Positions 1 to 14,216 of a DNA stretch of 14,216 bases are shown one piece after another. Origin of the DNA: a bacterium (GTDB lineage: Bacteria; UBP14; UBA6098; JAFGQG01); the NCBI GenBank assembly GCA_016930435.1, contig JAFGGQ010000111.1, forward strand, positions 1-14,216. The letters are read 5' to 3'. Under the pieces are notes generated by a model that was not told where the DNA came from, made no database searches, and saw only the letters and a list, made by a program, of their open reading frames with translations. Each line of letters starts with the position of its first letter. Within the stretch, counting starts at the first letter, position 1. Position numbers and translations under genes: made by a program.

Positions 1-3000
1 AAAAGTAAATCGGTAATAGTCGTGGGAGGCGGAGTTGCGGGTATTCAGGCAGCACTTGATCTTGCTGACATGGGAGCAGATGTTCATCTGATCGAACAAT
101 CTCCTTCTATTGGCGGCAGGATGGCTCAACTCGACAAAACCTTTCCCACAAATGATTGTTCTCTCTGTATTCTCTCTCCAAAAATGAGCGAATGCTCCAG
201 ACATCCCGGCATAAAAATTCATACCTGTTCTGATCTATTGGCGGTAAGCGGTGAACCCGGTGACTTCAAGGTAAAAATACTGGAAAGGGCAAAGTATGTA
301 GATACCACTAAGTGCGTCGCCTGTGGTATATGTGAGGAAAAATGCCCGGTAAAGGTAGATGATGTATTCGATACTCAGCTTCGCAAAAGGAAGGCAATCT
401 ATCGTTATTTCCTTCAAAGTGTGCCCTCTAACTTCGTTATAGACGAGGAACACTGTCTTTATCTGAATAAGGGCGCCTGCCGCTTATGCGAAAAGGAATG
501 TCCCGCTGATGCTATAAATTTCGATGATACTGACCGGATAGTTGAGCAAAGCGCCGGTGCAATTATACTATCGACAGGTATTGATGCCTTCAACCCTATC
601 GGTTATGCTCAATTTGGCTATGGTAAATTCAAGGACGTTTACACCTCCCTGGAATTTGAACGATTGCTTTGCGCTTCGGGACCCCATCGCGGTCACGTGG
701 TTACAAGATCCACGGGTAAGGAACCCCGTAAAATCGCCTTTTTACAGTGCATAGGTTCACGTGATGTGGATTGCGGCAAAGATTACTGCTCGGCAGTCTG
801 TTGTATGTATGCCATCAAAGAAGCTATCATTGCCAAAGAACATATCAAAACGCTGGAACCCACCATCTTTTTTATGGACATACGCGCCTATGGTAAAGAG
901 TTTGACAAATATTATTATCGTGCCGAAAAACAATTCGGAGTGAAGTTCGTCCGGGCCAAAGTTGCAAAAATAACCCAGGTATCCAATGATCCGCAGAGTG
1001 ATGATTACGGGAAGCTGCGCGTGCATTTTACCCAACCCAACGGGAAACATGATAGCGAAGATTTCGATATGATATCCCTTTCCGTTGGATTGGAAGCCCG
1101 TAAGGATCTGGAACCTCTGGCGGATAAACTTGATATAAAATTGGATCAATACGGGTTCTGCCGCACTGACCTGTTCAACCCCTTGAACACTTCCCGGGAA
1201 GGGATATTTGTGTGTGGGCCTATGAGCGGCCCGAAGGATATTCCGGAATCTGTAATGTCCGCTTCAGGGGCAGTTGGACGTTGCGCCAGGTTGCTGGGAC
1301 TGGAACGCCAGGAGAAGGTCTCCAAAAAGGAATTTCCACCAGAAAAGGATGTCATAGGTAACCGCCCCCGTATCGGGGCTTTCATCTGCCATTGCGGTAT
1401 AAATATCGCCGGAGTTGTTGATGTCAAGCAGGTTGCCGAATTCGCAAAAACCCTCCCCAACGTGGAATATGCCGATACCCTCCTCTATGCCTGTTCCCAG
1501 GATTGCATGGATGATATCAAGGATAAGATCGAAAAATATAAACTCAACCGGATACTGGTAGCCGCCTGCACTCCCCGCACCCATGAACCTTTATTCCGTG
1601 AGACCTTAAGGGAAGCCGGCCTCAACCAGTATCTCTTCGAAATGGCAAATATCCGGGACCAATGTTCATGGGCTCACATGAACGAACCGGAGCTGGCCAC
1701 CTTAAAATCCAAGGAACTTGTTGCTATGGGCGTTGCCAAGGCACACGACCTTGTACCGCTGGAGCGACTCCCCATCCCAATTAACCCTAATGCCCTGGTA
1801 ATCGGAGGCGGTATCGCCGGGATGACAGCAGCACTTGCGTTCGCCGAAAGCGGATTCCAAACCTACTTGGTGGAACGGGAAGGGGAACTGGGAGGCCATC
1901 TACGCACAACGTTCTTTACACTGGAAGGGGAAAACCCCCAAAAATTACTGAAGGATACTATTAAAAAGGTAAAAGCTCATAAACTCATCGAGGTCTATTC
2001 GGATTCCGAGATTAAAACCATTAAAGGTTACGTTGGAAATTTCAAAACTAATATACAATCCGGGAATAAAGACCCTATCGAGGTGGAGCATGGGATTGTC
2101 GTGGTTGCCACCGGAGGAAACGAGCACAAAACATCCTCTTACCTTTATGGTGAGAATCGCAATGTGTTAACCCAAAAGGAATTTGAGAGGATGATGACTC
2201 AGGAGGATTTCAAAAACCACCATTTAAGAAATGTAGTCATGATCCAGTGTGTTGATTCCCGGGAACCTGAAGAATATACCAGTTGCGAAGGCGACCGTCT
2301 GTATTGCAGCCGGGTTTGTTGTAGCCATGCGATAAAAAACAGCCTTGTACTAAAGGGGAAAAAGCCTAAAACCGATATCTTCGTCCTGTACCGGGATGTT
2401 CGCACCTATGGCCTGAGAGAAAAATTCTACGGGGAAGCCCGTGATAAGGAAGTTATCTTCATTCAATATGATCTGGACAGAAAGCCGGATGTGAAACCCC
2501 TTGACCCCGAAGACCCAAACTCCAAACTGCTGGTTACCGTTTTCGATCCTATTCTTGACAAAAAGGTCCAGATAGAAGCTGATCTTCTGGTTCTTTCCGT
2601 GGGAATAGATCCCCCCGCTCAGAATGAGAATCTTGGTAAAATGCTGAAGGTTCCTCTGAATAAGGAGGGTTTCTTTCTGGAGGCTCACATGAAATTAAGG
2701 CCGGTAGATTTCGCCACCGAAGGTATATTCATGGCCGGATTGGCACACTGTCCCAAGAGTATTGATGAGTCTATAATTCAAGCTAACGCTGCGGCTTCGA
2801 GGGCAATGACCATACTCAGCAAAATGGTGATCGAGGCGGAGGGTACCATCTGCCATGTGAATCCAGAAAAATGCACTGCCTGCGGGACCTGCGTAGAGGT
2901 ATGCGCTTACGCAGCTACATCAATAAATGAGGAAACCGGAGTAGCCGAAATCAATGATGCCCTTTGCAAGGGATGTGGCGCCTGCGCTGCCTCCTGTCGT

Positions 3001-3069
3001 TGCGGTGCCATTGACCTGCGCGGCTTTACCGACCAGCAAATCTATCAGGCAATAACTTCATTGGAGTAA
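1..3069 (+). CDS. hdrA: Double-length HdrA-type FAD/Fe-S electron-bifurcation subunit (5' end outside window)
   Basis: The reading frame is open from base 1, and the residues before the GTG at 22 form the first strand of a Rossmann fold, so the true start lies just upstream. The visible 1022 residues hold, in order: a FAD fold with GGGVAG near residue 9; an FPTNDC region (C53, C56, C65); an inserted ferredoxin (C105/108/111/115, then C152/160/163/167); an HdrA cluster motif (C250, C263, C267, C268); the CHCG domain that begins methanogen HdrA (C463, C465, C498, C502, C523); a second FAD fold (GGGIAG near 602) with its own cluster motif (C750, C769, C773, C774); and a C-terminal ferredoxin (C958/961/964/968, C989/992/995/999). 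HdrA carries the bifurcating FAD and passes electrons to ferredoxin and HdrB/C. Methanogen HdrA is about 650 residues; long forms like this occur in anaerobic bacteria. The next gene, mvhD, is its usual partner. The family is certain; the physiological substrate is not. Confidence 0.95.
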   Translation, partial: KSKSVIVVGGGVAGIQAALDLADMGADVHLIEQSPSIGGRMAQLDKTFPTNDCSLCILSPKMSECSRHPGIKIHTCSDLLAVSGEPGDFKVKILERAKYVDTTKCVACGICEEKCPVKVDDVFDTQLRKRKAIYRYFLQSVPSNFVIDEEHCLYLNKGACRLCEKECPADAINFDDTDRIVEQSAGAIILSTGIDAFNPIGYAQFGYGKFKDVYTSLEFERLLCASGPHRGHVVTRSTGKEPRKIAFLQCIGSRDVDCGKDYCSAVCCMYAIKEAIIAKEHIKTLEPTIFFMDIRAYGKEFDKYYYRAEKQFGVKFVRAKVAKITQVSNDPQSDDYGKLRVHFTQPNGKHDSEDFDMISLSVGLEARKDLEPLADKLDIKLDQYGFCRTDLFNPLNTSREGIFVCGPMSGPKDIPESVMSASGAVGRCARLLGLERQEKVSKKEFPPEKDVIGNRPRIGAFICHCGINIAGVVDVKQVAEFAKTLPNVEYADTLLYACSQDCMDDIKDKIEKYKLNRILVAACTPRTHEPLFRETLREAGLNQYLFEMANIRDQCSWAHMNEPELATLKSKELVAMGVAKAHDLVPLERLPIPINPNALVIGGGIAGMTAALAFAESGFQTYLVEREGELGGHLRTTFFTLEGENPQKLLKDTIKKVKAHKLIEVYSDSEIKTIKGYVGNFKTNIQSGNKDPIEVEHGIVVVATGGNEHKTSSYLYGENRNVLTQKEFERMMTQEDFKNHHLRNVVMIQCVDSREPEEYTSCEGDRLYCSRVCCSHAIKNSLVLKGKKPKTDIFVLYRDVRTYGLREKFYGEARDKEVIFIQYDLDRKPDVKPLDPEDPNSKLLVTVFDPILDKKVQIEADLLVLSVGIDPPAQNENLGKMLKVPLNKEGFFLEAHMKLRPVDFATEGIFMAGLAHCPKSIDESIIQANAAASRAMTILSKMVIEAEGTICHVNPEKCTACGTCVEVCAYAATSINEETGVAEINDALCKGCGACAASCRCGAIDLRGFTDQQIYQAITSLE

Positions 3070-3118: not shown

Positions 3119-3574
3119 ATGGAACAAAATCAGGAAACTAAACAAACCACCAAAAGCGAGAATTGGGAACCCAGGATTATGGCTTTTCTCTGTAACTGGT
3201 GTTCTTATGCTGGTGCGGACCTGGCTGGAGTATCAAGAATTCAGTACCCACCCAATATCCGTGTAATCAGGGTACCCTGTTCCGGCCGCATCGACCCCAT
3301 ATTTGTATTACGATGCCTCCAGAGCGGTTATGACGGGGTACTGGTTTCAGGCTGCCATCCAGGGGACTGTCATTATATCTCAGGGAATTACGTAGCTCGC
3401 AGAAAGTTCGTTGCACTCCGCGCTATCCTTAACTTCCTGGGCATCGAACCGGGAAGAGTCCAGTTCTCCTGGGTCTCCGCCGGAGAGGGAGAAAAATTCT
3501 CCGAAGTGATTAAAAAAGTAACTGACGACGTAAAAAAACTTGGACCCGCTTCCAGGTTAGTAAAGAAAGATTAA
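3119..3574 (+). CDS. mvhD: MvhD/FlxD-family [2Fe-2S] electron-transfer subunit
   Basis: This 151-residue soluble protein belongs to the MvhD family (also called FlxD, or hydrogenase iron-sulfur subunit delta). The motifs are FLCNWCSYAGADLAG (C25, C28), VPCSGR (C54), C66 and GCHPGDCHY (C79, C84). These cysteines hold the [2Fe-2S] cluster that links an electron-input module to HdrA. The length is normal for a stand-alone MvhD. The first 18 residues or so are polar and look like a flexible tail. The gene lies 49 bases after hdrA and 4 bases before the next gene, so it is very probably co-transcribed with both. The ATG at 3119 has only a weak purine-rich sequence ahead of it, but the next possible start falls immediately before the first cluster motif. 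With no hydrogenase large or small subunit nearby, the donor is more likely the Flx-type NAD(P)H module encoded just downstream. Confidence 0.95.
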   Translation: MEQNQETKQTTKSENWEPRIMAFLCNWCSYAGADLAGVSRIQYPPNIRVIRVPCSGRIDPIFVLRCLQSGYDGVLVSGCHPGDCHYISGNYVARRKFVALRAILNFLGIEPGRVQFSWVSAGEGEKFSEVIKKVTDDVKKLGPASRLVKKD

Positions 3575-3578
3575 TATT

Positions 3579-4565
3579 ATGGGAACTATCAACGAAGACT
3601 TAAGGAAACAAGCCCAGAAGCTCCTGGCCAATAAGGAAATCGATTATTTTGTGGGCTGCAGACAAGGCACCATCCCCTTCCGCTCCGCCCCTCACGCTTT
3701 CCGGACTGAAGCGGAGTTGGACCAGTTGACTTTCGATATGACCTGCAGCAACAACCTGGCTCAATTTCTCCATAAGAATTACAAAAAAGGTGACAAGATT
3801 GGGATCGCCGCTAAGGGTTGCGATGCCCGTACCCTGATCCAGCTGATGGCTGAAAACCAATTCCCCCGGGAAGCTATCAAGATAATCGGGGTTCCCTGCT
3901 GCGGGGTTTTGGACCAAAAGAAAATAAGGGATAAATTAGGGGGCAAACCGGTACTCAAGTATTCCCTGCCTTCTATGGAGGAGATACTCTCCGGGAAAAA
4001 GGATACCCTTACCGTGGAGGGTAAGGATTTTAAGGAGGAGATCAAACTTGCTGATGTGGTCTCCAACAACTGCCTGGTCTGCGAATATCCTTCCGCCCCC
4101 CTGGCTGATACATTTATCCAGGAGGGCCTCAAACAGGAAAAAGCTAGCGGCTCTATGAATTGGTTGGAGAAATTTGAGAAAATGAGTTCTGACGAGCGAT
4201 GGGAATATTTTTCCAAGCAATACTCCAAGTGCATCCGCTGTTATGCCTGCCGCAACGCTTGCCCCTTCTGTTATTGCGAACAGTGCATCGTTGATGACAG
4301 TCAGCCACAGTGGTTCGGGAAGAGTACCAATCTCTCGGATACAATGGTCTTTCACATCATTCGTACCCTGCATGTAGCCAGCCGGTGCATAGGTTGCGGA
4401 GCCTGCACACGGGCATGCCCTACCGGCGTGGACCTCGTTACACTGGGGCTTTATCTGGATAAAGAAATCAAGGAAAGATTCGGTTATACTCCCGGTCTGG
4501 ACCCCGGGGAATTACCCGCTCTCTGTACTTATAAAGAAGACGAAAAACAAGACTTCATAATGTAA
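3579..4565 (+). CDS. FrhB-like/ferredoxin iron-sulfur protein (FlxC-like position)
   Basis: This 328-residue iron-sulfur protein has an N-terminal region resembling the beta subunit of F420-reducing hydrogenases and dehydrogenases (FrhB/FdhB type). It shows AAKGCDART around residue 81, GVPCCGV at 107-108 and an NNCLVCEYP pair at 165 and 168. The C-terminal part has two [4Fe-4S] motifs, C218/221/224/228 and C270/273/276/280, in the arrangement typical of HdrC-like proteins. Extra cysteines (C231, C233, C236) follow the first motif. No signal peptide or membrane segment is seen. It starts 4 bases after mvhD and ends 2 bases before the next gene. In FlxABCD-HdrABC clusters two iron-sulfur proteins connect the FAD/NAD(P) subunit to the MvhD-like subunit, and this gene and its neighbour fit those roles. 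The match to FlxC is by position and domain type only. FrhB-like does not imply F420 here, because many bacterial members use ferredoxin or flavin. Confidence 0.8.
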   Translation: MGTINEDLRKQAQKLLANKEIDYFVGCRQGTIPFRSAPHAFRTEAELDQLTFDMTCSNNLAQFLHKNYKKGDKIGIAAKGCDARTLIQLMAENQFPREAIKIIGVPCCGVLDQKKIRDKLGGKPVLKYSLPSMEEILSGKKDTLTVEGKDFKEEIKLADVVSNNCLVCEYPSAPLADTFIQEGLKQEKASGSMNWLEKFEKMSSDERWEYFSKQYSKCIRCYACRNACPFCYCEQCIVDDSQPQWFGKSTNLSDTMVFHIIRTLHVASRCIGCGACTRACPTGVDLVTLGLYLDKEIKERFGYTPGLDPGELPALCTYKEDEKQDFIM

Positions 4566-4567
4566 TC

Positions 4568-5578
4568 ATGAAAAAATTAAAGCTAAAAAAGAAAAATTTG
4601 GGTGATTTCATCAATGAATTAACCCGTGACTATGCTCTGTACGCACCCCAAGAAAAGGAAGGAACTATCTCCTTTAGCCTTGTGGAAAAACCCGAAGAGA
4701 TAACTCTTGATTATCACAACAGTGATACATCCCCAAAAGAGATATTCTTCCCTCAAAAAGAGGTTATACTGACCTATCAGGATGGCAACTCTCAACCGGT
4801 TTTCTACGAGGGAAAACCATTCGCATTGTTGGGAGTCCGTCCCTGCGACGCCAAAAGCTTCCAGCTTTTGCATCAGGTCTTCAGCACCAAAAAATTTGAA
4901 GATCCATATTGGTTAACCCGCTTTAAGAATGCCCTGATCATCGGATTGGCCTGCAATGATACGCTCCCTACATGTTTCTGTAACTGGTTGGATGGCAGCC
5001 CTCATGGAAAAGAGGGGATGGACATTCTACTAACCGACCTGGGTGAAACCTACCTTGCAGAAGCTGTTACCGAAAAGGGTGAAAGTCTTCTGAAACAACA
5101 AAAAGATTGGGAGGAAGCTTCCGAGGCCGATCTGAAACAGGCCAGTAAGTTAGAAGAAACCGCCTTGAAAAGTTTACCCCCGAAGATCGAAAGCGCTAAA
5201 CTCAAGGAAAAACTGGATGGGATGTGGGATGACCCTCTCTGGGAGGAAATCGCCCAACGGTGCCTGAACTGCGGAGCATGCGCATACCTTTGCCCAACCT
5301 GTCATTGCTTCGACATACAGGATGAAGGAAATGAGAAAAATGGAAAGCGTATCCGGTTGTGGGATTGCTGCATGTACCCCTTATTCACCAAGGAGGGCTC
5401 CGGGCACAATCCCCGGAAAAACCCCGCTGATAGGGTCAAGCAAAGGTTCATGCATAAATTCAACTACATCATCCAGAACTTCGATAAATATGGCTGCATC
5501 GGATGCGGCAGGTGTATTACCTATTGCCCGGTCAACATAGATGTTCGGGAAGTGCTTAAACAGATATTGGAAACTTAG
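4568..5578 (+). CDS. AsrA/sulfhydrogenase-beta-like 4Fe-4S protein (FlxB-like)
   Basis: This 336-residue protein resembles anaerobic sulfite reductase subunit A and the beta subunit of archaeal sulfhydrogenases, the group to which FlxB belongs. It shows GVRPCDAKSF (C93), CNDTLPTCFCN (C129, C136, C138), a first [4Fe-4S] motif C232/235/238/242 followed by a CHC pair (C245, C247), DCC at 267-268 and a second motif C310/313/316/320. The middle, about residues 160-225, is charged and probably helical. The gene begins 2 bases after the previous stop with no clear Shine-Dalgarno sequence, so translation is probably coupled. Proteins of this family sit between a FAD/NAD(P)H reductase of AsrB type and a catalytic module. 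The following gene is exactly such a reductase, so this protein most likely receives electrons from it and passes them to the FrhB-like/MvhD pair. The family is well supported; the path of electrons is inferred. Confidence 0.85.
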   Translation: MKKLKLKKKNLGDFINELTRDYALYAPQEKEGTISFSLVEKPEEITLDYHNSDTSPKEIFFPQKEVILTYQDGNSQPVFYEGKPFALLGVRPCDAKSFQLLHQVFSTKKFEDPYWLTRFKNALIIGLACNDTLPTCFCNWLDGSPHGKEGMDILLTDLGETYLAEAVTEKGESLLKQQKDWEEASEADLKQASKLEETALKSLPPKIESAKLKEKLDGMWDDPLWEEIAQRCLNCGACAYLCPTCHCFDIQDEGNEKNGKRIRLWDCCMYPLFTKEGSGHNPRKNPADRVKQRFMHKFNYIIQNFDKYGCIGCGRCITYCPVNIDVREVLKQILET

Positions 5579-5634: not shown

Positions 5635-6477
5635 ATGGTAGAATCAACAAAAACTTATATACCCATACCGGTAAAGGTTTCCCGGATAAATGAGGAATCC
5701 CCGGATCGCACCCTTAGAACTTATGATCTTGAGTTCGTCAACAAGGAGGATCGGTTCGATTATATGCCCGGTCAGTTCTGCCAACTTTCCATTTTCGGGA
5801 AAGGTGAATCGCCCCTGGGTATAGCCTCTTCTCCAACCGAAACCGATTTTTTACGGTTCACGGTCAACCGGGTTGGAGTGGTAACCACGGCCATTCACTA
5901 CCTGGAGGAAGGCGATGAATTGGGAGTGCGGGGCCCACTGGGCAACTACTACCCGGTAGAAAAATTCAAGGGCCAGAACGTGGTCATCGTTTCCGGCGGC
6001 TTCGCCTTTACAACACTTCGATCCCTTGTTGTATATATGCTGGATCCCGCGCACCGGGGTGATTATAAGGACATTACCGTGATTTACGGAGCCCGGACTC
6101 CCGATCTCCTTATTTATAAGGATGAACTGGAGAAATGGGAAACAAGAAAGGATATCAACGTCCATTTGACAATCGATAAGGGCATTCAAGGGTGGAAAAA
6201 ACATGTAGGATTTGTCCCCTCGGTAACCAAGGAAATCGCTCCAGCCTCAAAAGACGCCTGGGTTGTTGTCTGCGGACCGCCCATTATGATAAAATATACC
6301 CTGCCCGTACTCACCGAATTGGGATTCCCTTCAGAACGGATCTATACATCCCTCGAGCGAAGAATGAAATGCGGAATCGGTAAATGCGGACGATGTAATA
6401 TCGGAGCGAAATATATCTGCCTCGACGGTCCGGTGTTCTCGCTGGCAGAACTGGAAGATATCTCCGAACCGTACTAA
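5635..6477 (+). CDS. flxA: FlxA/AsrB-type FAD, NAD(P)H and [2Fe-2S] reductase
   Basis: This 280-residue protein has the ferredoxin-NADP-reductase-type architecture of FlxA, AsrB, sulfhydrogenase gamma and dihydroorotate dehydrogenase electron-transfer subunits. The FAD barrel contains MPGQF (44-48) and PLGIASSP (60-67), with VRGPLGNYY near 98-106. The nucleotide fold begins at VVIVSGG (116-122) and ends with VVCGPPIM (211-218). The C-terminal [2Fe-2S] cluster uses C246, C251, C254 and C262. It is expected to oxidise NADH or NADPH in the cytosol and feed the two iron-sulfur proteins encoded just upstream. The glycine-rich nucleotide motif reads GGFAFTT rather than the GGGIGIAP seen in many relatives, so cofactor choice should not be assumed. 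The start at 5635 has a purine-rich GAGAGTAGAG just ahead of it. It follows a 56-base AT-rich spacer and is the last gene before a 116-base gap, so it may close the first operon section. Confidence 0.9.
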   Translation: MVESTKTYIPIPVKVSRINEESPDRTLRTYDLEFVNKEDRFDYMPGQFCQLSIFGKGESPLGIASSPTETDFLRFTVNRVGVVTTAIHYLEEGDELGVRGPLGNYYPVEKFKGQNVVIVSGGFAFTTLRSLVVYMLDPAHRGDYKDITVIYGARTPDLLIYKDELEKWETRKDINVHLTIDKGIQGWKKHVGFVPSVTKEIAPASKDAWVVVCGPPIMIKYTLPVLTELGFPSERIYTSLERRMKCGIGKCGRCNIGAKYICLDGPVFSLAELEDISEPY

Positions 6478-6593: not shown

Positions 6594-7064
6594 ATGGAAG
6601 AAATCAGGTTAAAGGACCTCGACCAGAAGTTCAAATATGACATTGCCACTAGACCCGGGGCTGGCAACTTTACAAGATGCTTTACCTGTGGGACCTGCAC
6701 CGCGGTTTGCCCCGTTGCCGAGGTCAATGAAGATTACGATCCCCGCAAACTTATCCGCATGTCCATTTTGGGAATGCGCGATGAAGTGCTTTCTTCTGAC
6801 ATAATCTGGATGTGCCAGAGATGTTATGCCTGTTATGCCCGTTGTCCACAGAACGTAAAATTCGCGGATATTCTGGGTGTGCTCAGGGATATGGCCATCG
6901 AGGAAGGCCATGCTGACAAGGCCATGAACGATCGCATCGAAAATCTGGACCGCTTTGTACAGGATGTTAGATGCAAAATGGTCGCGAATATGCTGCATCC
7001 ATCCGACGACCAGAAAAAAAAGGTTCGGAAAATGGTAGAGGAAGAATTAGTCAGAAATGAGTGA
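6594..7064 (+). CDS. hdrC: HdrC-type 2x[4Fe-4S] subunit
   Basis: This 156-residue protein is a typical HdrC, the small iron-sulfur subunit that wires HdrA to its catalytic partner. It contains CFTCGTCTAVCP (C29/32/35/39) and CQRCYACYARCP (C74/77/80/84), the two [4Fe-4S] motifs of the family. A charged helical tail follows, with RDMAIEEGHAD near 98. The length is normal and no membrane segment is present, so it is the soluble form rather than HdrE-linked. The start is fixed by a strong AAGGAG site. The gene overlaps the next one by 8 bases. HdrC is normally encoded beside HdrB, the subunit carrying the CCG-motif non-cubane clusters, but none follows here. The partner is therefore either encoded elsewhere, possibly upstream of this window, or replaced by another subunit of the cluster. 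Confidence 0.93.
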   Translation: MEEIRLKDLDQKFKYDIATRPGAGNFTRCFTCGTCTAVCPVAEVNEDYDPRKLIRMSILGMRDEVLSSDIIWMCQRCYACYARCPQNVKFADILGVLRDMAIEEGHADKAMNDRIENLDRFVQDVRCKMVANMLHPSDDQKKKVRKMVEEELVRNE

Positions 7065-7494
7065 AAGTACCCTTGACAAATTTGCACGAGAACTGCAGGA
7101 AGAAATATTAGAAGATGTAAGAAGGAATTACAGTGAAACGGTTGTTGATCACTGGATGCAGCCTCGCCACCTGGGTTTTTTGCCCCAGCATAATGGTTAT
7201 GGCCGGCTTACCGGAAGCTGCGGAGACACCATGGAGTTCTTTTTGGATATAGAAAATGAGAGGATCACCAGGATCGGATTCGATACTGACGGGTGCGGAA
7301 CCAGTATCGCATCTGCAAGCATAACCGCTGAATTAGCCCTGGGTAAACCTTTGAAAGAGGCAAAAATGATTACCAATCTGACCGTACTGGAAAAAGCCGG
7401 TGGATTACCCGAAGAGGATCAACACTGCGCCCTTCTTGCGGCAAACACCTTACAAGAGGCAATTAAAAACTATGAAGAAAGATCCAAAGGATAA
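7057..7494 (+). CDS. NifU/IscU-type iron-sulfur cluster scaffold protein
   Basis: This 145-residue protein matches the N-terminal U-type scaffold domain on which Fe-S clusters are built. The three ligand cysteines are present: GSCGD (C55, with the conserved D57), [11 protein letters not shown] (C80) and QHCALLA (H123, C124). ALGKPLKEA near 94-102 is also typical of the fold. An N-terminal extension of about 25 residues precedes the usual start and looks helical. There are no NifU middle or C-terminal domains. The gene overlaps hdrC by 8 bases and the next gene by 23 bases, so its production is tied to these iron-sulfur-rich subunits. It probably supplies clusters to this complex. No cysteine desulfurase gene is in the window, so sulfur must come from a desulfurase encoded elsewhere. 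The scaffold assignment is secure; dedication to this complex is inferred from position. Confidence 0.88.
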
Positions 7495-8377
7495 AAAACT
7501 GGGAAGTGTCCTCATCGTGGGTGGCGGTATTGCCGGTATTCAGTCATCATTGGACCTTGCTAACTCTGGATATAAGGTCTATTTGATGGAAAAAGGGCCC
7601 TCCATTGGCGGGATCATGGCCCAGTTAGATAAGACCTTCCCCACCAACGACTGCGCAATGTGTATAATGGCCCCCAAATTAGTGGAATGCGGAAGACACC
7701 CAAACATCGAACTGATCACTAATAGTGAAATCCAGGACCTGGCCGGACACGCCGGAAATTTCAAGGTAAACATTACCAAAAAACCCCGCTATGTCGATGA
7801 AGATAAATGTACCGGTTGCGGCGCATGTATGGAAAATTGCCCGGTCCGGTATGAAATCCAGCCACCCGATGAAAAAGTCGAGATAAAACTGAGTCCGGAA
7901 GAACTGGAAAAAATAACCAGGATTATCAAGGATTACAAGGATAAAAAAGGAAACCTGCTTCCCGCACTCCACGATGTCAACATTAGCTATAATTATTTGC
8001 CTGAAAATATCCTCCGCTATATATCCGAGGAACTGGATATCCCCCTGAGCCTTATCTATCAGATCGCTACCTTCTATAATGCTTTCAGCTTGAAGCCGAA
8101 GGGCAAATATACCATTAATGTATGTTTGGGTACAGCCTGCTACATAAAGGGCGCAAACCGGATTTTAGAAGCATTTCAAAATCTGCTCAGGATCAAAGTA
8201 GGTAATACTACCGAGGATTTAATGTTCGGATTGGAAACTATCTCCTGCTTTGGGTGTTGTGGACAGGCACCAGTAGTTACCGTCAATGAGGATATTCACG
8301 GCCACTTCCGGATAACAAGAGTTCCCAAGATCATTAAAGATTACAAGGAGGGCTTATATGCAGAAACTGAAGCCTGA
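7472..8377 (+). CDS. Fusion of an HdrA N-terminal stub with a NuoE-type [2Fe-2S] domain
   Basis: This 301-residue protein joins two families. Residues 1-130 closely resemble the start of the long HdrA in this window: GGGIAGIQ at 17-24, [13 protein letters not shown] with C61/C64/C73, and one [4Fe-4S] motif at C113/116/119/123. The remainder of the HdrA flavoprotein is missing. Residues 141-298 form a NuoE-like (24 kDa, thioredoxin-fold) domain with [15 protein letters not shown] and [2Fe-2S] ligands C218, C223, C259 and C263 (CLGTAC and CFGCC). The ATG at 7472 is chosen because it sits just before the Rossmann strand; the in-frame GTG at 7400 would add 24 residues lying out of frame within the scaffold gene. 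The gene overlaps both neighbours. NuoE passes electrons to or from the NuoF FMN, so the stub probably docks this module onto the Hdr part. The truncated FAD fold may not bind FAD alone. Confidence 0.9.
8345..8352 (+). promoter_or_regulatory. Shine-Dalgarno site inside the HdrA-NuoE gene
   Basis: AAGGAGGG lies within the last codons of the fusion gene, 5 bases ahead of the ATG at 8358. It fixes the start of the small downstream protein and allows it to be translated independently of, or coupled to, the fusion gene. Confidence 0.75.
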
Positions 8378-8741
8378 AGACCTGGAGAAAATAACCCAGA
8401 AAGTAAAACAAACCATGCTTCTTCGGGAGAGTACCGGTAAAGCAAAAATCATTGTACATATGGGGACTTGCGGGATTGCAGCTGGTTCCCGTAAAATAAT
8501 GAGCGCTGTGCTTAAAGAGATCGAGGATAATAAACTCGAAGATATCATTGTTACAACCTCCAGTTGCGCGGGGCTTTGCAGCAGGGAACCAATGATAACC
8601 GTAGAGATAAAGGGACAGCCTCCGGTCAAATATGTGGATCTGACCCCACAGAAAGTTGCTGAAATTATTCAAAGACATATTATCGGCGGCGAAATCGCTA
8701 AGGAATATGCACTGGCTTTTGGCAGCGAGAGAGTGCCTTAA
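8358..8741 (+). CDS. HndB-like thioredoxin-fold (2Fe-2S ferredoxin-like) protein
   Basis: This 127-residue protein resembles HndB of NADP-reducing hydrogenases and the thioredoxin-like ferredoxin domains fused to NuoF in other bacteria. It has MGTCGIAAG (C38), [13 protein letters not shown] (C70, C74) and [19 protein letters not shown], followed by a helix at about 97-108. Only three of the four cysteines of a full [2Fe-2S] thioredoxin-like ferredoxin are present, since the position five residues before C38 is valine; HndB relatives often look like this. It overlaps the preceding gene by 20 bases and has its own strong ribosome binding site. The order NuoE domain, HndB-like, NuoF matches hndABC-type operons, so it probably belongs to the NAD(P)H-oxidising module. 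Its exact role in HndB systems is not well established. A gap of 88 bases follows. Confidence 0.85.
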
Positions 8742-8829: not shown

Positions 8830-11800
8830 ATGGCTTATAGGACTAATTTATTATTATGCACCTGTACTATGTGCGTTTCAGTGGGTGCCTTGAAAGTCAA
8901 AAAAAAATTGGAAGAGGAACTCAAAAAGCACAACCTGCAGGATGAGATTCAGATTGTCCCTACCGGCAGCAGCTGGTTATGTACCCGGGGCCCGACCCTG
9001 ATCGTCCAACCCGACGATGTGGTTTATCAATTTCTGAAAGAAGATGACATACCTTATTTGGTCGAGGAACACCTTCTCAAGGGTAGGCCTGTTAAAGCCC
9101 TGATGTACCAGCATCCGGAAGCCCTGGTCCCTATTGAAAAGCTGCACGAAATACCTTTTTACCGGGACCAGCGTCTGATCGCCCTGTGGAACCGGGGCAT
9201 TATCAACCCCGAGAATATCGATGAGTATATTGGCCGGGAGGGTTACCAGGCCTTAGCCAAGGTGCTCAGCGGGATGAAACCCGATGAGGTGATCCAGGTG
9301 ATTAAGGATTCCGGATTGCGCGGCAGGGGCGGGGGAGGATTCCCTACAGGAAGAAAATGGGAGTTTGCATTTAATAATCCCGAAAAACCAAAGTACTTGA
9401 TTTGCAACGCAGATGAAGGCGACCCCGGAGCATTTATGGACCGCTCCATCATCGAAGCAGACCCCCATTCACTGATCGAGGGAATGACCATCGCAGGTTA
9501 CGCTATCGGGGCAAATAAAGGATTTGTTTATGCACGTATCGAATACCCGCTTGCCATCAAACGGCTTCAGCAGGGCATCGAATCAGCACGGGAATATGGT
9601 TTATTGGGTAAAGGGATATTCGGTTCCGACTTTGACTTTGACCTGGAGATATTCCGTGGCGCCGGAGCATTCGTCTGCGGTGAGGAAACATCCTTGATCC
9701 ACTCTATTGAAGGCCAACCCGCTGAACCCAGGCAAAGACCACCATTCCCGGTGCAGCAGGGTTTGTTCGGCCAGCCTACCGTTATTAACAATGTCGAAAC
9801 ATTGGCAAACGTTCCCCGTATAATCAACTTCGGGGCAAAATGGTTTTCCAGTATCGGGACTGAAACCAGTAAGGGCACCAAAGTTTTCTCACTGGCTGGA
9901 GATATAATCAACGCCGGACTGGTAGAGGTACCTATGGGTATCACCCTGCGTCAAATGGTTTACGATATAGGGGGAGGCCTTCCCAACGATAAAAAATTTA
10001 AGGCTGTGCAAACCGGCGGGCCATCCGGGGGCGTCATTCCCTCCACCCTGCTGGACCTCCCCGTAGATTATGAACGGCTCCAGGAAGCCGATGCCATCAT
10101 GGGTTCCGGCGGAATGATCGTTATGGATGAGGATAATTGCATGGTCGATGTGGCCAAGTATTTTCTCAAATTCACCAATGATGAAAGCTGCGGCAAATGT
10201 ACCAGCTGCCGCGAGGGAAGCAAGGTCATGCTGGATATCCTGACCCGAATCACCCGGGGCGAAGGCCGGGAAGGAGATATCGAATTTCTGGAGGAACTAT
10301 GCTATGCCATCCGTGACGCATCCCAATGCGGATTAGGCCAAACCCTTCCCAATCCGGTACTATCCAGCATAAAACATTTCCGAAAAGAATATGAAGAGCA
10401 TATCAAGTTCAAGCGCTGCAATGCCGCGATCTGTACCGAGATAATCTCCTCACCCTGCCAGCATACCTGCCCCATTGAAACAGAAGCGGCCACCTATATC
10501 GCTTTGACTGCCCAACGGAAGTACCGCGAGGCTCTGGAGATCGTCCGTAAGGACAATCCACTCCCAGGTGTATGCGGAAGGGTATGTCATCATCCCTGTG
10601 AATCAAAGTGCAGGGCCGGAGAAGGCGGACAGCCTATCGCCATCCGGGACATCAAACGCTTCCTGACCGATTATGGCAAGGAGCATAATTTCGAGCATAC
10701 TTTAAAGCCCCTGAAAAAGCGCACTGAAAAGGTAGCCGTAGTAGGTTCCGGCCCGGCGGGTCTGGCGGCGGCTAACAGCCTGGCCATTGAAGGTTACCAG
10801 GTAACCGTGTTTGAAGCACTCCCTATGATCGGCGGGATGCTAAGGGCAGGCATCCCCCCGCACCGCTTACCCCGCGATATCCTGGATTATGATCTCGAAC
10901 CGATCAGGAAAATCGTTGATTTCAAGACCAATACCAGACTGGGTAAGGATTTCAATCTGGAGGATCTCTTTGAGCAGGGATACAAGGCGGTATTTTTAGC
11001 GCTGGGAGCACATAAAAGCACCATGCTCGGCATTCCCGGCGAGGAGTCCGAAGGAGTACTTGGTTCCATGCCCTTCCTGACCATGGTTAACCTGGGTCAT
11101 GAAGTGAATATTGGAAAAAGAATCGGGATCATAGGCGGAGGTAACTCGGCAGTGGATGCCGCGCGAGTAGCGCAAAGGCTTCCTGAAGTCGAGGAAGTTA
11201 CTATTATTTACCGGCGTACCCAGAAGGAAATGCCAGCTTATGCAGAAGAGGTTGAACAAGCTCTTGAGGAAGGTATCAAGATAGTATTCCTGGCAGCACC
11301 CACCAAGATAATCACTAAAGATGGCAAACTTAGCAAGGTTGAATGTATCCGGATAGAACTGGGCGAAATGGACAATAGTGGTCGTAGGCGGCCGGTCCCC
11401 ATTGAGGGCTCTGAGTTTACAATGGAGCTGGACACCTTGATCCGGGCTATCAGCGAACAGCCGGAAACTGGTTTCATCAGCGATAAGGACGGGCTCGAGT
11501 TAACCCGCTGGGGCACTATCGTTGTCAACGAGGAGTATCTCTCTACCCCTCGCCAGGGAATATTTGCAGGCGGAGATGTAGTCACCGGGCCAAATACCGT
11601 GATCGAAGCCATCGCCGCCGGAAAACTGGCTGCGGAAATGATAGGCAAATATCTCGATGGACAAGAACTCAACAGGACCTATACTATTACCAGACCATCC
11701 CAATATCCCGAACCCGTGGAGTTGTCAGAGGACGAACTTGACGAAGCCACCCGGCCGGAAATGCCTTTGATCCCGCCTTCTGAAAGGGCCAAGAACTTCA

Positions 11801-11910
11801 AGGAAGTAGCCCGGGGATACACGGAGGAGATGGTAATCAAGGAAGCCCGGCGATGCCTCCGTTGCGACCTTGAAACCGAAGATGGGAAAAAAGCAGTGGG
11901 GAGATCATGA
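8830..11910 (+). CDS. NuoF-GltD fusion: FMN/NADH subunit joined to FAD/NAD(P)H oxidoreductase
   Basis: This 1026-residue protein has three parts. Residues 1-95 are a thioredoxin-like domain (C10, C12, C15, C51). Residues 110-525 are a NuoF/HydB-type FMN and NADH subunit with GRGGGGFPTG (165-174), CNADEGDPGAF (192-202), GAGAFVCGEE (277-286) and the [4Fe-4S] ligands C454, C457, C460 and C500. Residues 530-1015 resemble GltD, NfnB and dihydropyrimidine dehydrogenase: an N-terminal iron-sulfur helical region (C543, C547, C582, C586, C590, C594), a FAD fold (VVGSGPAGLAAA, 637-648), an NAD(P)H fold (GIIGGGNSAVDAA, 766-778), IYRRTQKEMPA (793-803) and the closing FAD motif IFAGGDVVTGP (911-921). The two ferredoxin motifs often found at the C-terminus of HydB/HndC are replaced by the GltD part. 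It may exchange electrons between NADH, NADPH and the Hdr module. Its stop overlaps the next start by 4 bases. Domains are clear; direction and substrate are inferred. Confidence 0.92.
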   Translation: MAYRTNLLLCTCTMCVSVGALKVKKKLEEELKKHNLQDEIQIVPTGSSWLCTRGPTLIVQPDDVVYQFLKEDDIPYLVEEHLLKGRPVKALMYQHPEALVPIEKLHEIPFYRDQRLIALWNRGIINPENIDEYIGREGYQALAKVLSGMKPDEVIQVIKDSGLRGRGGGGFPTGRKWEFAFNNPEKPKYLICNADEGDPGAFMDRSIIEADPHSLIEGMTIAGYAIGANKGFVYARIEYPLAIKRLQQGIESAREYGLLGKGIFGSDFDFDLEIFRGAGAFVCGEETSLIHSIEGQPAEPRQRPPFPVQQGLFGQPTVINNVETLANVPRIINFGAKWFSSIGTETSKGTKVFSLAGDIINAGLVEVPMGITLRQMVYDIGGGLPNDKKFKAVQTGGPSGGVIPSTLLDLPVDYERLQEADAIMGSGGMIVMDEDNCMVDVAKYFLKFTNDESCGKCTSCREGSKVMLDILTRITRGEGREGDIEFLEELCYAIRDASQCGLGQTLPNPVLSSIKHFRKEYEEHIKFKRCNAAICTEIISSPCQHTCPIETEAATYIALTAQRKYREALEIVRKDNPLPGVCGRVCHHPCESKCRAGEGGQPIAIRDIKRFLTDYGKEHNFEHTLKPLKKRTEKVAVVGSGPAGLAAANSLAIEGYQVTVFEALPMIGGMLRAGIPPHRLPRDILDYDLEPIRKIVDFKTNTRLGKDFNLEDLFEQGYKAVFLALGAHKSTMLGIPGEESEGVLGSMPFLTMVNLGHEVNIGKRIGIIGGGNSAVDAARVAQRLPEVEEVTIIYRRTQKEMPAYAEEVEQALEEGIKIVFLAAPTKIITKDGKLSKVECIRIELGEMDNSGRRRPVPIEGSEFTMELDTLIRAISEQPETGFISDKDGLELTRWGTIVVNEEYLSTPRQGIFAGGDVVTGPNTVIEAIAAGKLAAEMIGKYLDGQELNRTYTITRPSQYPEPVELSEDELDEATRPEMPLIPPSERAKNFKEVARGYTEEMVIKEARRCLRCDLETEDGKKAVGRS

Positions 11911-12263
11911 CCATTGAAGATATCAAAAAAATACTGAAAGCCGAAACGTTGACTGGAGAAAAGCTCCTGGATCGTGAAGTAAAAAGGGTTTGCGCCTCCG
12001 ACCTTATGAGCGATGTGCTGAGCTTCACCCTGGAAGATGCCCTGCTCCTGACCGGCCTGACCAATATCCAAACCATCTATACCGTGGAGATGGCTGACCT
12101 GTTGGCAGTTTGTTTCGTAAGGGGCAAAAAGCCCGATGAACGCACTATCCAACTTGCCAGGACTAAAAACATACCAATTCTTACTACAAATCTATCCATG
12201 TTCGAAAGCTGTGGCTTGCTTTTCGCTGAAGGTTTCATCGATTCTTTCAAAAAAGAACCTTAG
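11907..12263 (+). CDS. DRTGG-family small protein, first copy
   Basis: This 118-residue protein belongs to the DRTGG family, recognised from VCASDLMSDVLSF (about 28-40), a central ALLLTGLTN stretch, and PDERTIQLARTKNIPILTT near 75-93. The name motif itself is degenerate. These domains are found in phosphotransacetylase-like and CBS/pyrophosphatase proteins, where they are thought to bind ligands, and as stand-alone genes beside [FeFe]-hydrogenase operons. The start codon overlaps the stop of the NuoF-GltD gene (ATGA), so translation is coupled. A second copy follows at 13196-13540 beyond the CBS-ATPase gene. A sensory or regulatory role is likely but unproven. No catalytic residues are evident. 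Confidence 0.8.
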   Translation: MTIEDIKKILKAETLTGEKLLDREVKRVCASDLMSDVLSFTLEDALLLTGLTNIQTIYTVEMADLLAVCFVRGKKPDERTIQLARTKNIPILTTNLSMFESCGLLFAEGFIDSFKKEP

Positions 12264-12276
12264 CGCACTCTGATTG

Positions 12277-13209
12277 ATGGAAAAAAATAATTCAATTTCA
12301 AAACTCCAGGAACTGGCCTACGAACTGAAGATCAGGGATATAATGACTACCAGGGTTACTACTGTATTGCCAACTCAGAACATCAAAGATCTGCGGAAGA
12401 TAATGCACGATTCCAGCATCTCCGGCACCCCGGTAATGGAAAACGGTAAGCTGATCGGTATCATCTCTATCGAAGACTTTATCAGATCCCTCGTTAGAGG
12501 TGAAAATAACAAGACCGTCCAGGATATCATGACCCATCACGTTGAAACACTGTGCGCTGACGAACCGGTTATACATGCTGTAGCAAAATTCGAGAAGTTC
12601 GGTTACGGCCGGTTTCCCATTGTCGAGAGAAAGACCGGTGAACTTGCGGGGATAATTACAAAAAGCGATATCATCAAGGGAATGCTCAGGAAGCTGGAAA
12701 TAGACTATCGTGAGGAGGAAATCCACCGTTACAGGGCCAGTCATCTTTTCGAGGACGTGGTTGCTGATCACATTAATCTTACTTTGGAGTATAACGTTCA
12801 AGGCCAGAATTTTCACCATGCTGGTGAAGCCTCCAGCCGTTTAAAGAAAACCCTTCAGCGAATGGGACTACCGCTTGAGATCGTGAGAAGGGCGGCTATT
12901 GCATCCTATGAAATAGAGATGAACATAGTTATTTACACTAATGGGGGCAAATTAACCGCTTCCCTCCTCCCCGGGATTCTTAGTATAACCGCGGTAGATA
13001 AGGGCCCGGGGATACCGGATATACAACAGGCCATGCAACCAGGATTTTCGACGGCTACTACAACCATACGGGAAATGGGTTTCGGTGCCGGAATGGGACT
13101 CCCTAACGTAAAAAAATATACGGACGATATGCAAATTACATCTACACTCGGTAAGGGTACGGAAATAATAACAAAAATTTACCTCAAAGACCAAAATGCT
13201 CAAACTTAA
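12277..13209 (+). CDS. CBS-pair protein with RsbW-like HATPase domain
   Basis: This 310-residue protein begins with a pair of CBS domains (about 17-72 with SISGTPVMENGKLIGIISIEDF, split here as SISGTPVMENGK and LIGIISIEDF; and 80-137 with FPIVERKTGELAGIITKSDI as its core). These usually sense adenine nucleotides or S-adenosylmethionine. After a linker comes a GHKL ATPase domain (165-305) of the anti-sigma factor or RsbW type: an N-box around EIEMNIVIYTN, a G1 box DKGPGIPD and a G2 box GFGAGMGLPNVK. There is no histidine phosphorylation domain, so it is not a classical sensor kinase. The ATG at 12277 is preferred to the TTG at 12274. It lies 13 bases after the first DRTGG gene and overlaps the second by 14. 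The family commonly lies beside [FeFe]-hydrogenase genes. It may sense energy state and control this cluster; no target is visible here. Confidence 0.88.
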   Translation: MEKNNSISKLQELAYELKIRDIMTTRVTTVLPTQNIKDLRKIMHDSSISGTPVMENGKLIGIISIEDFIRSLVRGENNKTVQDIMTHHVETLCADEPVIHAVAKFEKFGYGRFPIVERKTGELAGIITKSDIIKGMLRKLEIDYREEEIHRYRASHLFEDVVADHINLTLEYNVQGQNFHHAGEASSRLKKTLQRMGLPLEIVRRAAIASYEIEMNIVIYTNGGKLTASLLPGILSITAVDKGPGIPDIQQAMQPGFSTATTTIREMGFGAGMGLPNVKKYTDDMQITSTLGKGTEIITKIYLKDQNAQT

Positions 13210-13540
13210 GGACATTATCCCGGAGCTGGAACTTAAACCAGCTTCCCAAAATTTTGATTCTAACCATGAGGTTACCGGTGGCTACGCCTCCGACCTGCTC
13301 AGCGATGTTATCGCTAACGCCGAAAAGAACTATCTATGGATTACCTTGCAGACTCATGAGAATATAATCGCGGTGGCTGTTTTGAAAGAGCTGGCAGGGA
13401 TCATACTGATAAATGATAGGGAACCCGATCCAAACACACTTAGCAAAGCAGAAAAAGAGGGCATTGCCCTGTTGCTAACCCCATTGCCTGCTTTCGAAGT
13501 AGTGGGCAGATTATATCAAATGGGTCTCCGCGGTTTGTAA
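13196..13540 (+). CDS. DRTGG-family small protein, second copy
   Basis: This 114-residue protein shares with the first copy the motif GYASDLLSDVIANA (about 29-42), a hydrophobic strand ILLTP-like stretch (LLLTPLPAFEVVGRL, 91-105) and PDPNTLSKAEKEGI in the same place as the first copy's PDERTIQLARTKNI. The two are therefore diverged paralogs. It overlaps the end of the CBS-HATPase gene by 14 bases, so translation is coupled. No cysteines or catalytic motifs are seen, which fits a binding or signalling role. It may partner with the other DRTGG protein and the ATPase. The PHP gene follows 17 bases later. Confidence 0.8.
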   Translation: MLKLKDIIPELELKPASQNFDSNHEVTGGYASDLLSDVIANAEKNYLWITLQTHENIIAVAVLKELAGIILINDREPDPNTLSKAEKEGIALLLTPLPAFEVVGRLYQMGLRGL

Positions 13541-13557
13541 TTAAATTGCTCTATGAA

Positions 13558-14216
13558 ATGCTGAAAAAATTTAAAATGGATCTGCACCTCCACACTTGCC
13601 TGTCACCCTGTGGGGATATCGCCATGCTTCCATCCAGAATAGTCCGGAAGGCGCAGGAACTTGGCCTGGATGCCATTGCCATTTCAGACCATAATTCTGC
13701 TGAAAATGTGAACGCGGCGCAAATGGCAGGGGACGAAATCGGAATAACAGTCATCGGCGGAATGGAGATCACATCCCGGGAAGAGGTACATATCTTAACC
13801 CTATTCCCCGATTACAAAAAACTCATGGAAATGCAACATATCGTCTATCAGCATTTGCCCGGTGAGAATGATCCTGACGCATTTGGCGACCAGATCGTAG
13901 TGGACAGTAACGACCAGGTGATCGACCTGAATTTCCGGCTGTTGATCGGTGCAACCGAGTTATCCGTGGAGGAAATCGTAGATCGTACCCATGCCCTGAA
14001 TGGTCTGGTCATTGCATCTCATGTTGACCGGGAACGATTTGGCATTATAGGTCAACTGGGTTTTATTCCACCTGGATTAGAACTGGATGCACTGGAGATA
14101 TCTCCAAGATCTGCACTGGAAATGGAAACCCTGGTGTTTGCTCCCGGTAATCAGTACCCCCTGGTTACCTTCTCAGACGCGCACTACCTGGAGGACATCG
14201 GCAAAATATACACCAG
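13558..14216 (+). CDS. PHP-domain metal-dependent phosphoesterase-like protein (3' end outside window)
   Basis: The reading frame stays open to the window end, giving 219 visible residues. PHP metal-binding motifs are clear: DLHLHTCLSPCGD (H10, H12, D20), ISDHNSAEN (H45), GGMEIT (E70), H78, ASHVDRERFG (H155) and FSDAHY (D207, H209). The domain is thus nearly complete and only a short tail appears to be missing. Such proteins bind two or three metal ions and hydrolyse phosphoesters, as in PolX/YciV-type proteins. Stand-alone PHP proteins of this kind recur beside DRTGG and HATPase genes in [FeFe]-hydrogenase clusters, although the substrate there is unknown. The ATG at 13558 is chosen; TTG at 13546 and ATG at 13576 are alternatives, and none has a strong ribosome binding site. 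The gene follows the second DRTGG gene by 17 bases. Confidence 0.88.
   Translation, partial: MLKKFKMDLHLHTCLSPCGDIAMLPSRIVRKAQELGLDAIAISDHNSAENVNAAQMAGDEIGITVIGGMEITSREEVHILTLFPDYKKLMEMQHIVYQHLPGENDPDAFGDQIVVDSNDQVIDLNFRLLIGATELSVEEIVDRTHALNGLVIASHVDRERFGIIGQLGFIPPGLELDALEISPRSALEMETLVFAPGNQYPLVTFSDAHYLEDIGKIYT

Follow-up and report, generated by a model that had tools for sequence, protein, structure and literature searches.

Introduction

Why should the first part of HdrA be attached to the front of a NuoE subunit? The question is raised by a single gene in the window, by which we mean the whole 14,216-nucleotide stretch of bacterial DNA that was analysed, corresponding to contig C150 of the source genome. 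A sequence-only reading had taken the HdrA part of this gene for a stub that had lost the rest of the flavoprotein and that serves as a docking or electron-bridge module. Our analysis leads us to a different answer: the gene product is very probably one half, the N-terminal one, of a split HdrA that is rebuilt on an assembly of NuoE, NuoF and NuoG.

Results

The HdrA–NuoE fusion protein and its gene cluster

The open reading frame at positions 7472–8377, on the forward strand like the Hdr, Mvh, Flx, ferredoxin, Nuo and DRTGG-to-PHP genes described below, has a stop-free translation of 301 amino acids (P0001). Residues 12–127 match the HdrA2 profile NF040770 (E 2.6e-53, model positions 141–257 of 777), residues 13–126 align without gaps to residues 146–259 of the solved HdrA 5odc_A, a second solved HdrA chain, 8rvv_A, is also matched (E 2.2e-48), and residues 149–292 cover the NuoE domain in full (PF01257, E 2.8e-47, model positions 2–145 of 145). 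The in-frame joining of an HdrA N-terminal part to a complete NuoE, first noticed from the letters alone, is thus borne out. From the ungapped alignment with 5odc_A it follows that the HdrA part (amino acids 9–128, hereafter half 1) starts at the first FAD-binding strand and stops shortly after the first CxxCxxCxxxC motif of the inserted ferredoxin. It contains the GGGIAG FAD-binding loop (amino acids 17–22; 7520–7537), the DCxxC motif with C61 and C64 (7652–7663), of which C64 aligns with Cys197 of 5odc_A, and the four cysteines of the first [4Fe-4S] motif (C113, C116, C119 and C123; 7808–7840), just behind which half 1 terminates. A linker of low conservation (amino acids 129–148; 7856–7915) leads into the NuoE (BfuC/HydC-type) [2Fe-2S] domain (7916–8347), which displays the thioredoxin fold type and the four invariant cysteines (C218, C223, C259 and C263) that define BfuC. 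AlphaFold models of single chains were of low confidence (mean pLDDT 64 for P0001 with 8 sequences, and 44 for a fragment of the partner protein from locus L013 with 4 sequences) and carry no information on contact between chains; when the weak P0001 model was used in Foldseek, NuoE-type chains were among the 50 matches listed, with HydC the nearest.

Upstream, the window encodes a complete double HdrA (1–3069, first codons lost at the contig end) with the order half 1, half 2, N-terminal domain, TrxR-like domain and C-terminal ferredoxin, followed by MvhD/FlpD (3119–3574; PF02662, E 2e-54), an FlxC/FrhB-like Fe-S protein (3579–4565; PF04432), an FlxB/HydB(sulfhydrogenase)-like Fe-S protein (4568–5578; PF17179, NF040829), an FlxA-like FAD/NAD(P)H reductase (5635–6477; PF00175, PF10418) and an HdrC-like Fe-S protein (6594–7064; TIGR03290, E 5.8e-26). 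Neither the window genes nor the syntenic contigs L180 and L181 gave a match to HdrB (CCG domains). An IscU/NifU-like scaffold gene (7057–7494) overlaps the fusion gene and is absent from these two contigs. Downstream lie a thioredoxin-like [2Fe-2S] ferredoxin (8358–8741; PF01257, E 3.3e-7), a NuoF–GltD fusion (8830–11910) combining the NAD(H) FMN subunit with an NADP(H)-type FAD domain, and DRTGG, CBS/HATPase, DRTGG and PHP genes (11907–14214), which accompany NuoEFG cassettes and of which the last, PHP, runs off the contig. GltD takes the place of the two C-terminal [4Fe-4S] motifs of HydB/BfuB, which are accordingly lacking on NuoF in the window and are present in L009, L105 and L181. The same replacement at the NuoF C-terminus was also seen in L010, L183, L211, L215, L217 and L218.

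The missing part of HdrA is carried by a NuoG-like protein

In the loci that encode the fusion, the gene after NuoF usually specifies a NuoG/HydA-like Fe-S module fused to precisely the HdrA part that is missing from P0001. In this half 2, the HdrA sequence sets in shortly ahead of the second cluster motif of the inserted ferredoxin. In the source genome half 2 is found near the start of contig C173, in a protein of 1094 amino acids (P0003) composed of a NuoG module, HdrA half 2 and a second HdrA, the latter with the N-terminal domain, an FAD domain lacking Cys197, and a C-terminal ferredoxin (the NuoG–half 2–HdrA2 type). P0003 possesses the N-terminal [2Fe-2S] plus [4Fe-4S] module typical of BfuA (PF13510 and cysteine motifs); a linker of about 45 residues leads from it to half 2, against about 20 between half 1 and NuoE in P0001. 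Contig C173 opens with the matching C-terminus of PHP (AELKKALMNEQGRSILKY, stop), followed by HATPase and then P0003; because of the split PHP gene and the synteny, the sequence indicates that C173 directly continues the window contig across an unsequenced gap of about 33 nt. In L181 (G050:C60) and L180 (G048:C239) the whole cluster lies on one contig, in the order HdrA, MvhD, FlxC, FlxB, FlxA, HdrC, half 1–NuoE, thioredoxin-like ferredoxin, NuoF, DRTGG, CBS, DRTGG, PHP, HATPase and NuoG–half 2. The first HdrA of L181 is cut at the contig end, as is NuoG–half 2 of L180, where the thioredoxin-like ferredoxin was not called. Behind P0003, a HycI hydrogenase maturation protease gene follows directly (L113, G000:C173, 4114–4605); no [NiFe] hydrogenase was recognised beside it at that locus.

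By itself, P0001 does not contain the complete TrxR-like FAD domain that HdrA carries on a single polypeptide; the domain is complete only together with half 2 on C173. Hence the view that the rest of the flavoprotein is lacking holds for the polypeptide and not for the gene cluster. Half 1 shares only 56% identity with the beginning of the long HdrA in the window; the HdrA–GltD protein on contig C113 is closer, at 75%.

The two halves fit without loss or overlap

When half 1 and half 2 were joined in silico, the alignment with intact HdrA extended across the entire FAD domain region, with nothing lost and nothing duplicated at the joint and with all conserved FAD-motif and Fe-S cysteine positions present. 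The eight cysteines of the inserted 2[4Fe-4S] ferredoxin are divided four to half 1 and four to half 2, so that neither chain has all of them. Conservation is high on both sides: GxGxxG is present in all 26 half 1–NuoE proteins with a complete N-terminus, DCxxC and the first CxxCxxCxxxC motif in 28/28 fusions, and the FAD motifs as a set, namely GxGxxG in half 1 and YCS..CC and PKDIP in half 2, in nearly all copies.

A further constraint concerns the HdrA N-terminal domain. In the solved HdrA dimer, the N-terminal-domain cluster of one copy receives Cys197 as a ligand from the other copy, and fused or tandem HdrA proteins of ANME divide Cys197 and the N-terminal domain between units (PMC9012536). 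In each of 26 same-locus pairs (26/26), exactly one partner carries the HdrA N-terminal domain: short half 1 is paired with the long NuoG–half 2–HdrA2, and long half 1 with a short NuoG–half 2 ending in a C-terminal ferredoxin (NuoG–half 2–CtFd). The window pair obeys this rule, with C64 in P0001 and the N-terminal domain on the C173 protein, and thus distributes Cys197 and N-terminal domain over paired units as HdrA does.

The halves occur together across genomes

Fusions of half 1 with NuoE were found at 74–79% identity in MAGs of Stahlbacteria, Neomarinimicrobiota and WOR-3, and at about 55% identity in an archaeon of the Thermoplasmata; the source genome holds two further copies, on contigs C51 and C131, both of which carry the HdrA N-terminal domain. 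In total, 28 distinct fusion sequences with conserved residues span several phyla and the one archaeon, all named records being MAGs. The spread across phyla and the two additional copies in the source genome show that the fusion is neither chance nor a sequencing error.

Among 386 genomes, half 1–NuoE is present in 11, each of which is also among the 16 with NuoG–half 2 (Fisher p 7e-18, a guide only since the genomes are related). The five genomes with NuoG–half 2 only (G081, G147, G155, G189 and G322) have a free half 1 with N-terminal domain between HdrB and NuoF. Within the window's phylum the two kinds of gene, 10 of each, match genome by genome, and 11 genomes have neither. Of the 11 genomes reached via loci in other phyla, only G043 was found without the NuoG–half 2 partner, and its contig (L011) breaks off immediately behind HATPase; G041 (L009) has the partner on a separate contig and not downstream of HATPase. 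Fused pairs on the same contig number 21, spaced 0.9–7.5 kb apart. In L111 (8552–11700) and L192 (870–4023), the latter with EtfA upstream, NuoG–half 2 directly follows half 1–NuoE; there is no NuoF between the halves, and the NAD site would have to come from elsewhere or be absent.

The fusion thus pairs with NuoG–half 2, and not in every case with a long HdrA and NuoF–GltD: GltD on NuoF is variable, and loci such as L110 and L211 lack both Flx genes and a long HdrA of the kind seen in the window. Free half 1 genes (L016, L028, L189, L211–L215 and L218) are intact and conserved, which disposes of the idea that relatives encode the two parts separately and that an error joined them here. At L016 (2255–2665) and L028 (8950–9360) the free half 1 has 137 amino acids, no N-terminal domain, and a separate NuoE gene behind it; L028 also has a NuoG-like protein without a fused half 2.

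Probable repeated grafting at a shared joint

A tree in which all 34 half 2 sequences form one clade was rejected (delta lnL 748, AU p 4e-168; two-tree test, quick tree), as was one in which the NuoG–half 2–CtFd type alone forms a clade (p 3e-8), the groups for the AU test having been named after viewing a first tree. Half 2 sequences on NuoG being not monophyletic, a single origin was rejected, with the reservation that later recombination could also break clades. For half 1 and half 2 alike, sequences of the short type fall among those of double HdrA, and sequences of the long type among those of canonical HdrA. These sequence relationships make it likely that at least two graftings took place at the same joint, from canonical and from double HdrA; we say only likely because the groups were named post hoc and because recombination could mimic the pattern.

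At L107 (G000:C113, 4806–9467) an HdrA of 1554 amino acids, with many relatives, carries GltD in its inserted ferredoxin, at this very joint. A cassette without HdrA was found at L112 (G001:C157, 3507–10361), with a NuoE bearing an N-terminal Fer2 domain and a free NuoG N-module of 187 amino acids; this arrangement is likely the form that preceded HdrA grafting.

Discussion

Mechanism and alternative explanations

In the mechanism that we propose, the break in HdrA falls within its inserted ferredoxin domain, after the first [4Fe-4S] motif and before the second, such that half 1, with the first FAD-binding unit, the DCxxC/Cys197 region and the first cluster motif, sits on the front of NuoE, and half 2, with the second cluster motif and the remaining FAD domain, on the end of a NuoG/HydA-type [2Fe-2S]/[4Fe-4S] module. 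Upon assembly of NuoE, NuoF and NuoG the halves would meet, the bifurcating FAD site would be completed, and two clusters would be built with ligands from both chains. As the inserted ferredoxin would be assembled from chains that run into NuoE and NuoG, its clusters would join the NuoG–NuoF wire. In HdrA this ferredoxin is the low-potential outlet (PMC9012536; see also PMC12350162), and in Bfu enzymes a third redox domain, the place of which half 2 would occupy, feeds the NuoEF core via the BfuA clusters (PMC9304861). The low-potential arm of HdrA would thereby exchange electrons with NAD(H) at NuoF, and not only with free ferredoxin, and GltD in the window would add a probable NADP(H) site; the direction of this flow, like the partner reactions considered below, is what we infer. 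In the short type, including the window, Cys197 of half 1 would serve the second HdrA on the NuoG–half 2 chain, as a ligand for its N-terminal domain. The window's own long HdrA is unneeded as a partner, since it contains a half 1 of its own.

It is hardly credible that the fusion is an assembly or sequencing artefact, or the relic of a decayed HdrA gene: the source is indeed a fragmented MAG, yet the genome holds three copies, and many independent assemblies contain conserved ones, for which reason we rejected error and pseudogene alike. Half 1 might, as the sequence-only reading had it, be a docking or electron-bridge module that has no FAD role, tethers NuoE to an intact HdrA and uses its cluster as a relay. 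In solved dimers its Cys197 region contacts the second HdrA molecule, and the gene cluster does include an intact double HdrA; moreover, the physical link between NuoEF and HdrA that this reading proposed is well supported. We nevertheless regard a purely docking role as quite improbable, because it leaves unexplained why exactly the missing half is found on the neighbouring NuoG, why the two halves co-occur, and why the FAD loop is retained, and because the pair also exists in L110 and L211, where there is no long HdrA like that of the window. With a complementary NuoG–half 2 adjoining in nearly all testable relatives and, judged by contig order, in the source genome, a stub that lost its remainder is not the best description of half 1.

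Finally, the halves might restore the fold and the clusters as an electron wire only, with no bifurcating FAD bound or used. The P0001 AlphaFold model, weak overall, is unsure exactly in the FAD-contact loop (amino acids 44–65) and in the half ferredoxin (104–135), and a relay could suffice; however, the retention of GxGxxG, YCS..CC and PKDIP in nearly all copies makes a mere wire very improbable. A split HdrA, reconstituted with its flavin site, agrees best with these data.

Relation to known systems

Jointly, the halves carry the same domains and ligands as HdrA of HdrABC–MvhAGD and its ANME paralogues, and they follow the same rule that the N-terminal domain and Cys197 lie on complementary units (PMC9012536). 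In those proteins, however, the FAD domain is one polypeptide; in the split HdrA it is divided within the inserted ferredoxin, and the resulting halves are borne by different Nuo subunits. ANME-1 HdrA, in which an NfnB-like domain interrupts the inserted ferredoxin (PMC9012536), and the HdrA–GltD of C113 both have a foreign redox domain at this ferredoxin, but their chain is whole, while the split HdrA is open at the joint and continues there into two different subunits. With Bfu/HydABC (PMC9304861) the unit shares NuoE (BfuC), NuoF (BfuB), the NuoG-like N-module (BfuA) and a further redox domain after the Fe-S motifs. The Bam-Bfu complex (BamGHI with an HdrA-like subunit; PMC9304861) also combines a NuoEFG-type module with HdrA, but there the HdrA module stands alongside separate BamGHI subunits instead of being split over BfuC and BfuA. 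The Stn/Nfn-Bfu transhydrogenase (PMC7483475) shares the combination of NuoE, NuoF and GltD; its GltD is on the NuoG-like StnC and no HdrA is described, whereas in the window GltD is on NuoF. FlxABCD–HdrABC shares FlxA-, FlxB-, FlxC-, MvhD-, HdrA- and HdrC-like genes, and differs in that the window has no HdrB and has a second, split HdrA with NuoEFG. In the open-access literature searched, we found no description of a split HdrA or of HdrA–NuoE or HdrA–NuoG fusions, a scope within which novelty is unproven.

Genomic partners and significance

The unit occurs in varied settings: beside Mvh-type [NiFe] hydrogenase genes (L013, L211, L213 and L219), mostly with HdrBC; beside a fumarate-reductase-like flavoprotein with HdrBC; beside EtfAB and acyl-CoA dehydrogenase (EtfBA on C131, also at L221); and beside Flx genes (the window, L180, L181 and L220). 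The locus on C51 (L105, G000:C51, 3300–13613) reads fumarase, Fe-S protein, fumarate-reductase-like flavoprotein, HdrC, HdrB, half 1–NuoE with N-terminal domain, NuoF and NuoG–half 2, and possibly encodes an NADH-linked fumarate reductase. That on C131 (L106, G000:C131, 350–13563) reads acyl-CoA dehydrogenase, CCG Fe-S protein, EtfB, EtfA, half 1–NuoE with N-terminal domain, NuoF, NuoG–half 2 and MeaB, and an Etf-linked confurcating complex is possible. HdrA-like matches were also noted on G041:C38, G042:C105 and G050:C86; their in-frame TGA codons may encode selenocysteine.

We think it probable that these loci represent an enzyme class in which a bifurcating HdrA is complemented from NuoE- and NuoG-borne halves, with inter-chain [4Fe-4S] clusters, at least two origins and varied partners. 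The finding bears on the connection between HdrA and NADH modules of the NuoEFG/HydABC type, which has been proposed for the benzoyl-CoA reductase Bam complexes, as the covalent links predict that the inserted ferredoxin of HdrA meets the N-terminus of NuoE and the NuoG Fe-S module at its end. From the position of the unit beside EtfAB/acyl-CoA dehydrogenase, a fumarate-reductase-like protein and Mvh hydrogenase, one can derive testable routes connecting NAD(P)H, ferredoxin and high-potential couples in anaerobes, fatty-acid oxidation included. If our interpretation is true, a bifurcating flavin site would be complete only upon assembly, and two electron-splitting machines would be hard-wired together.
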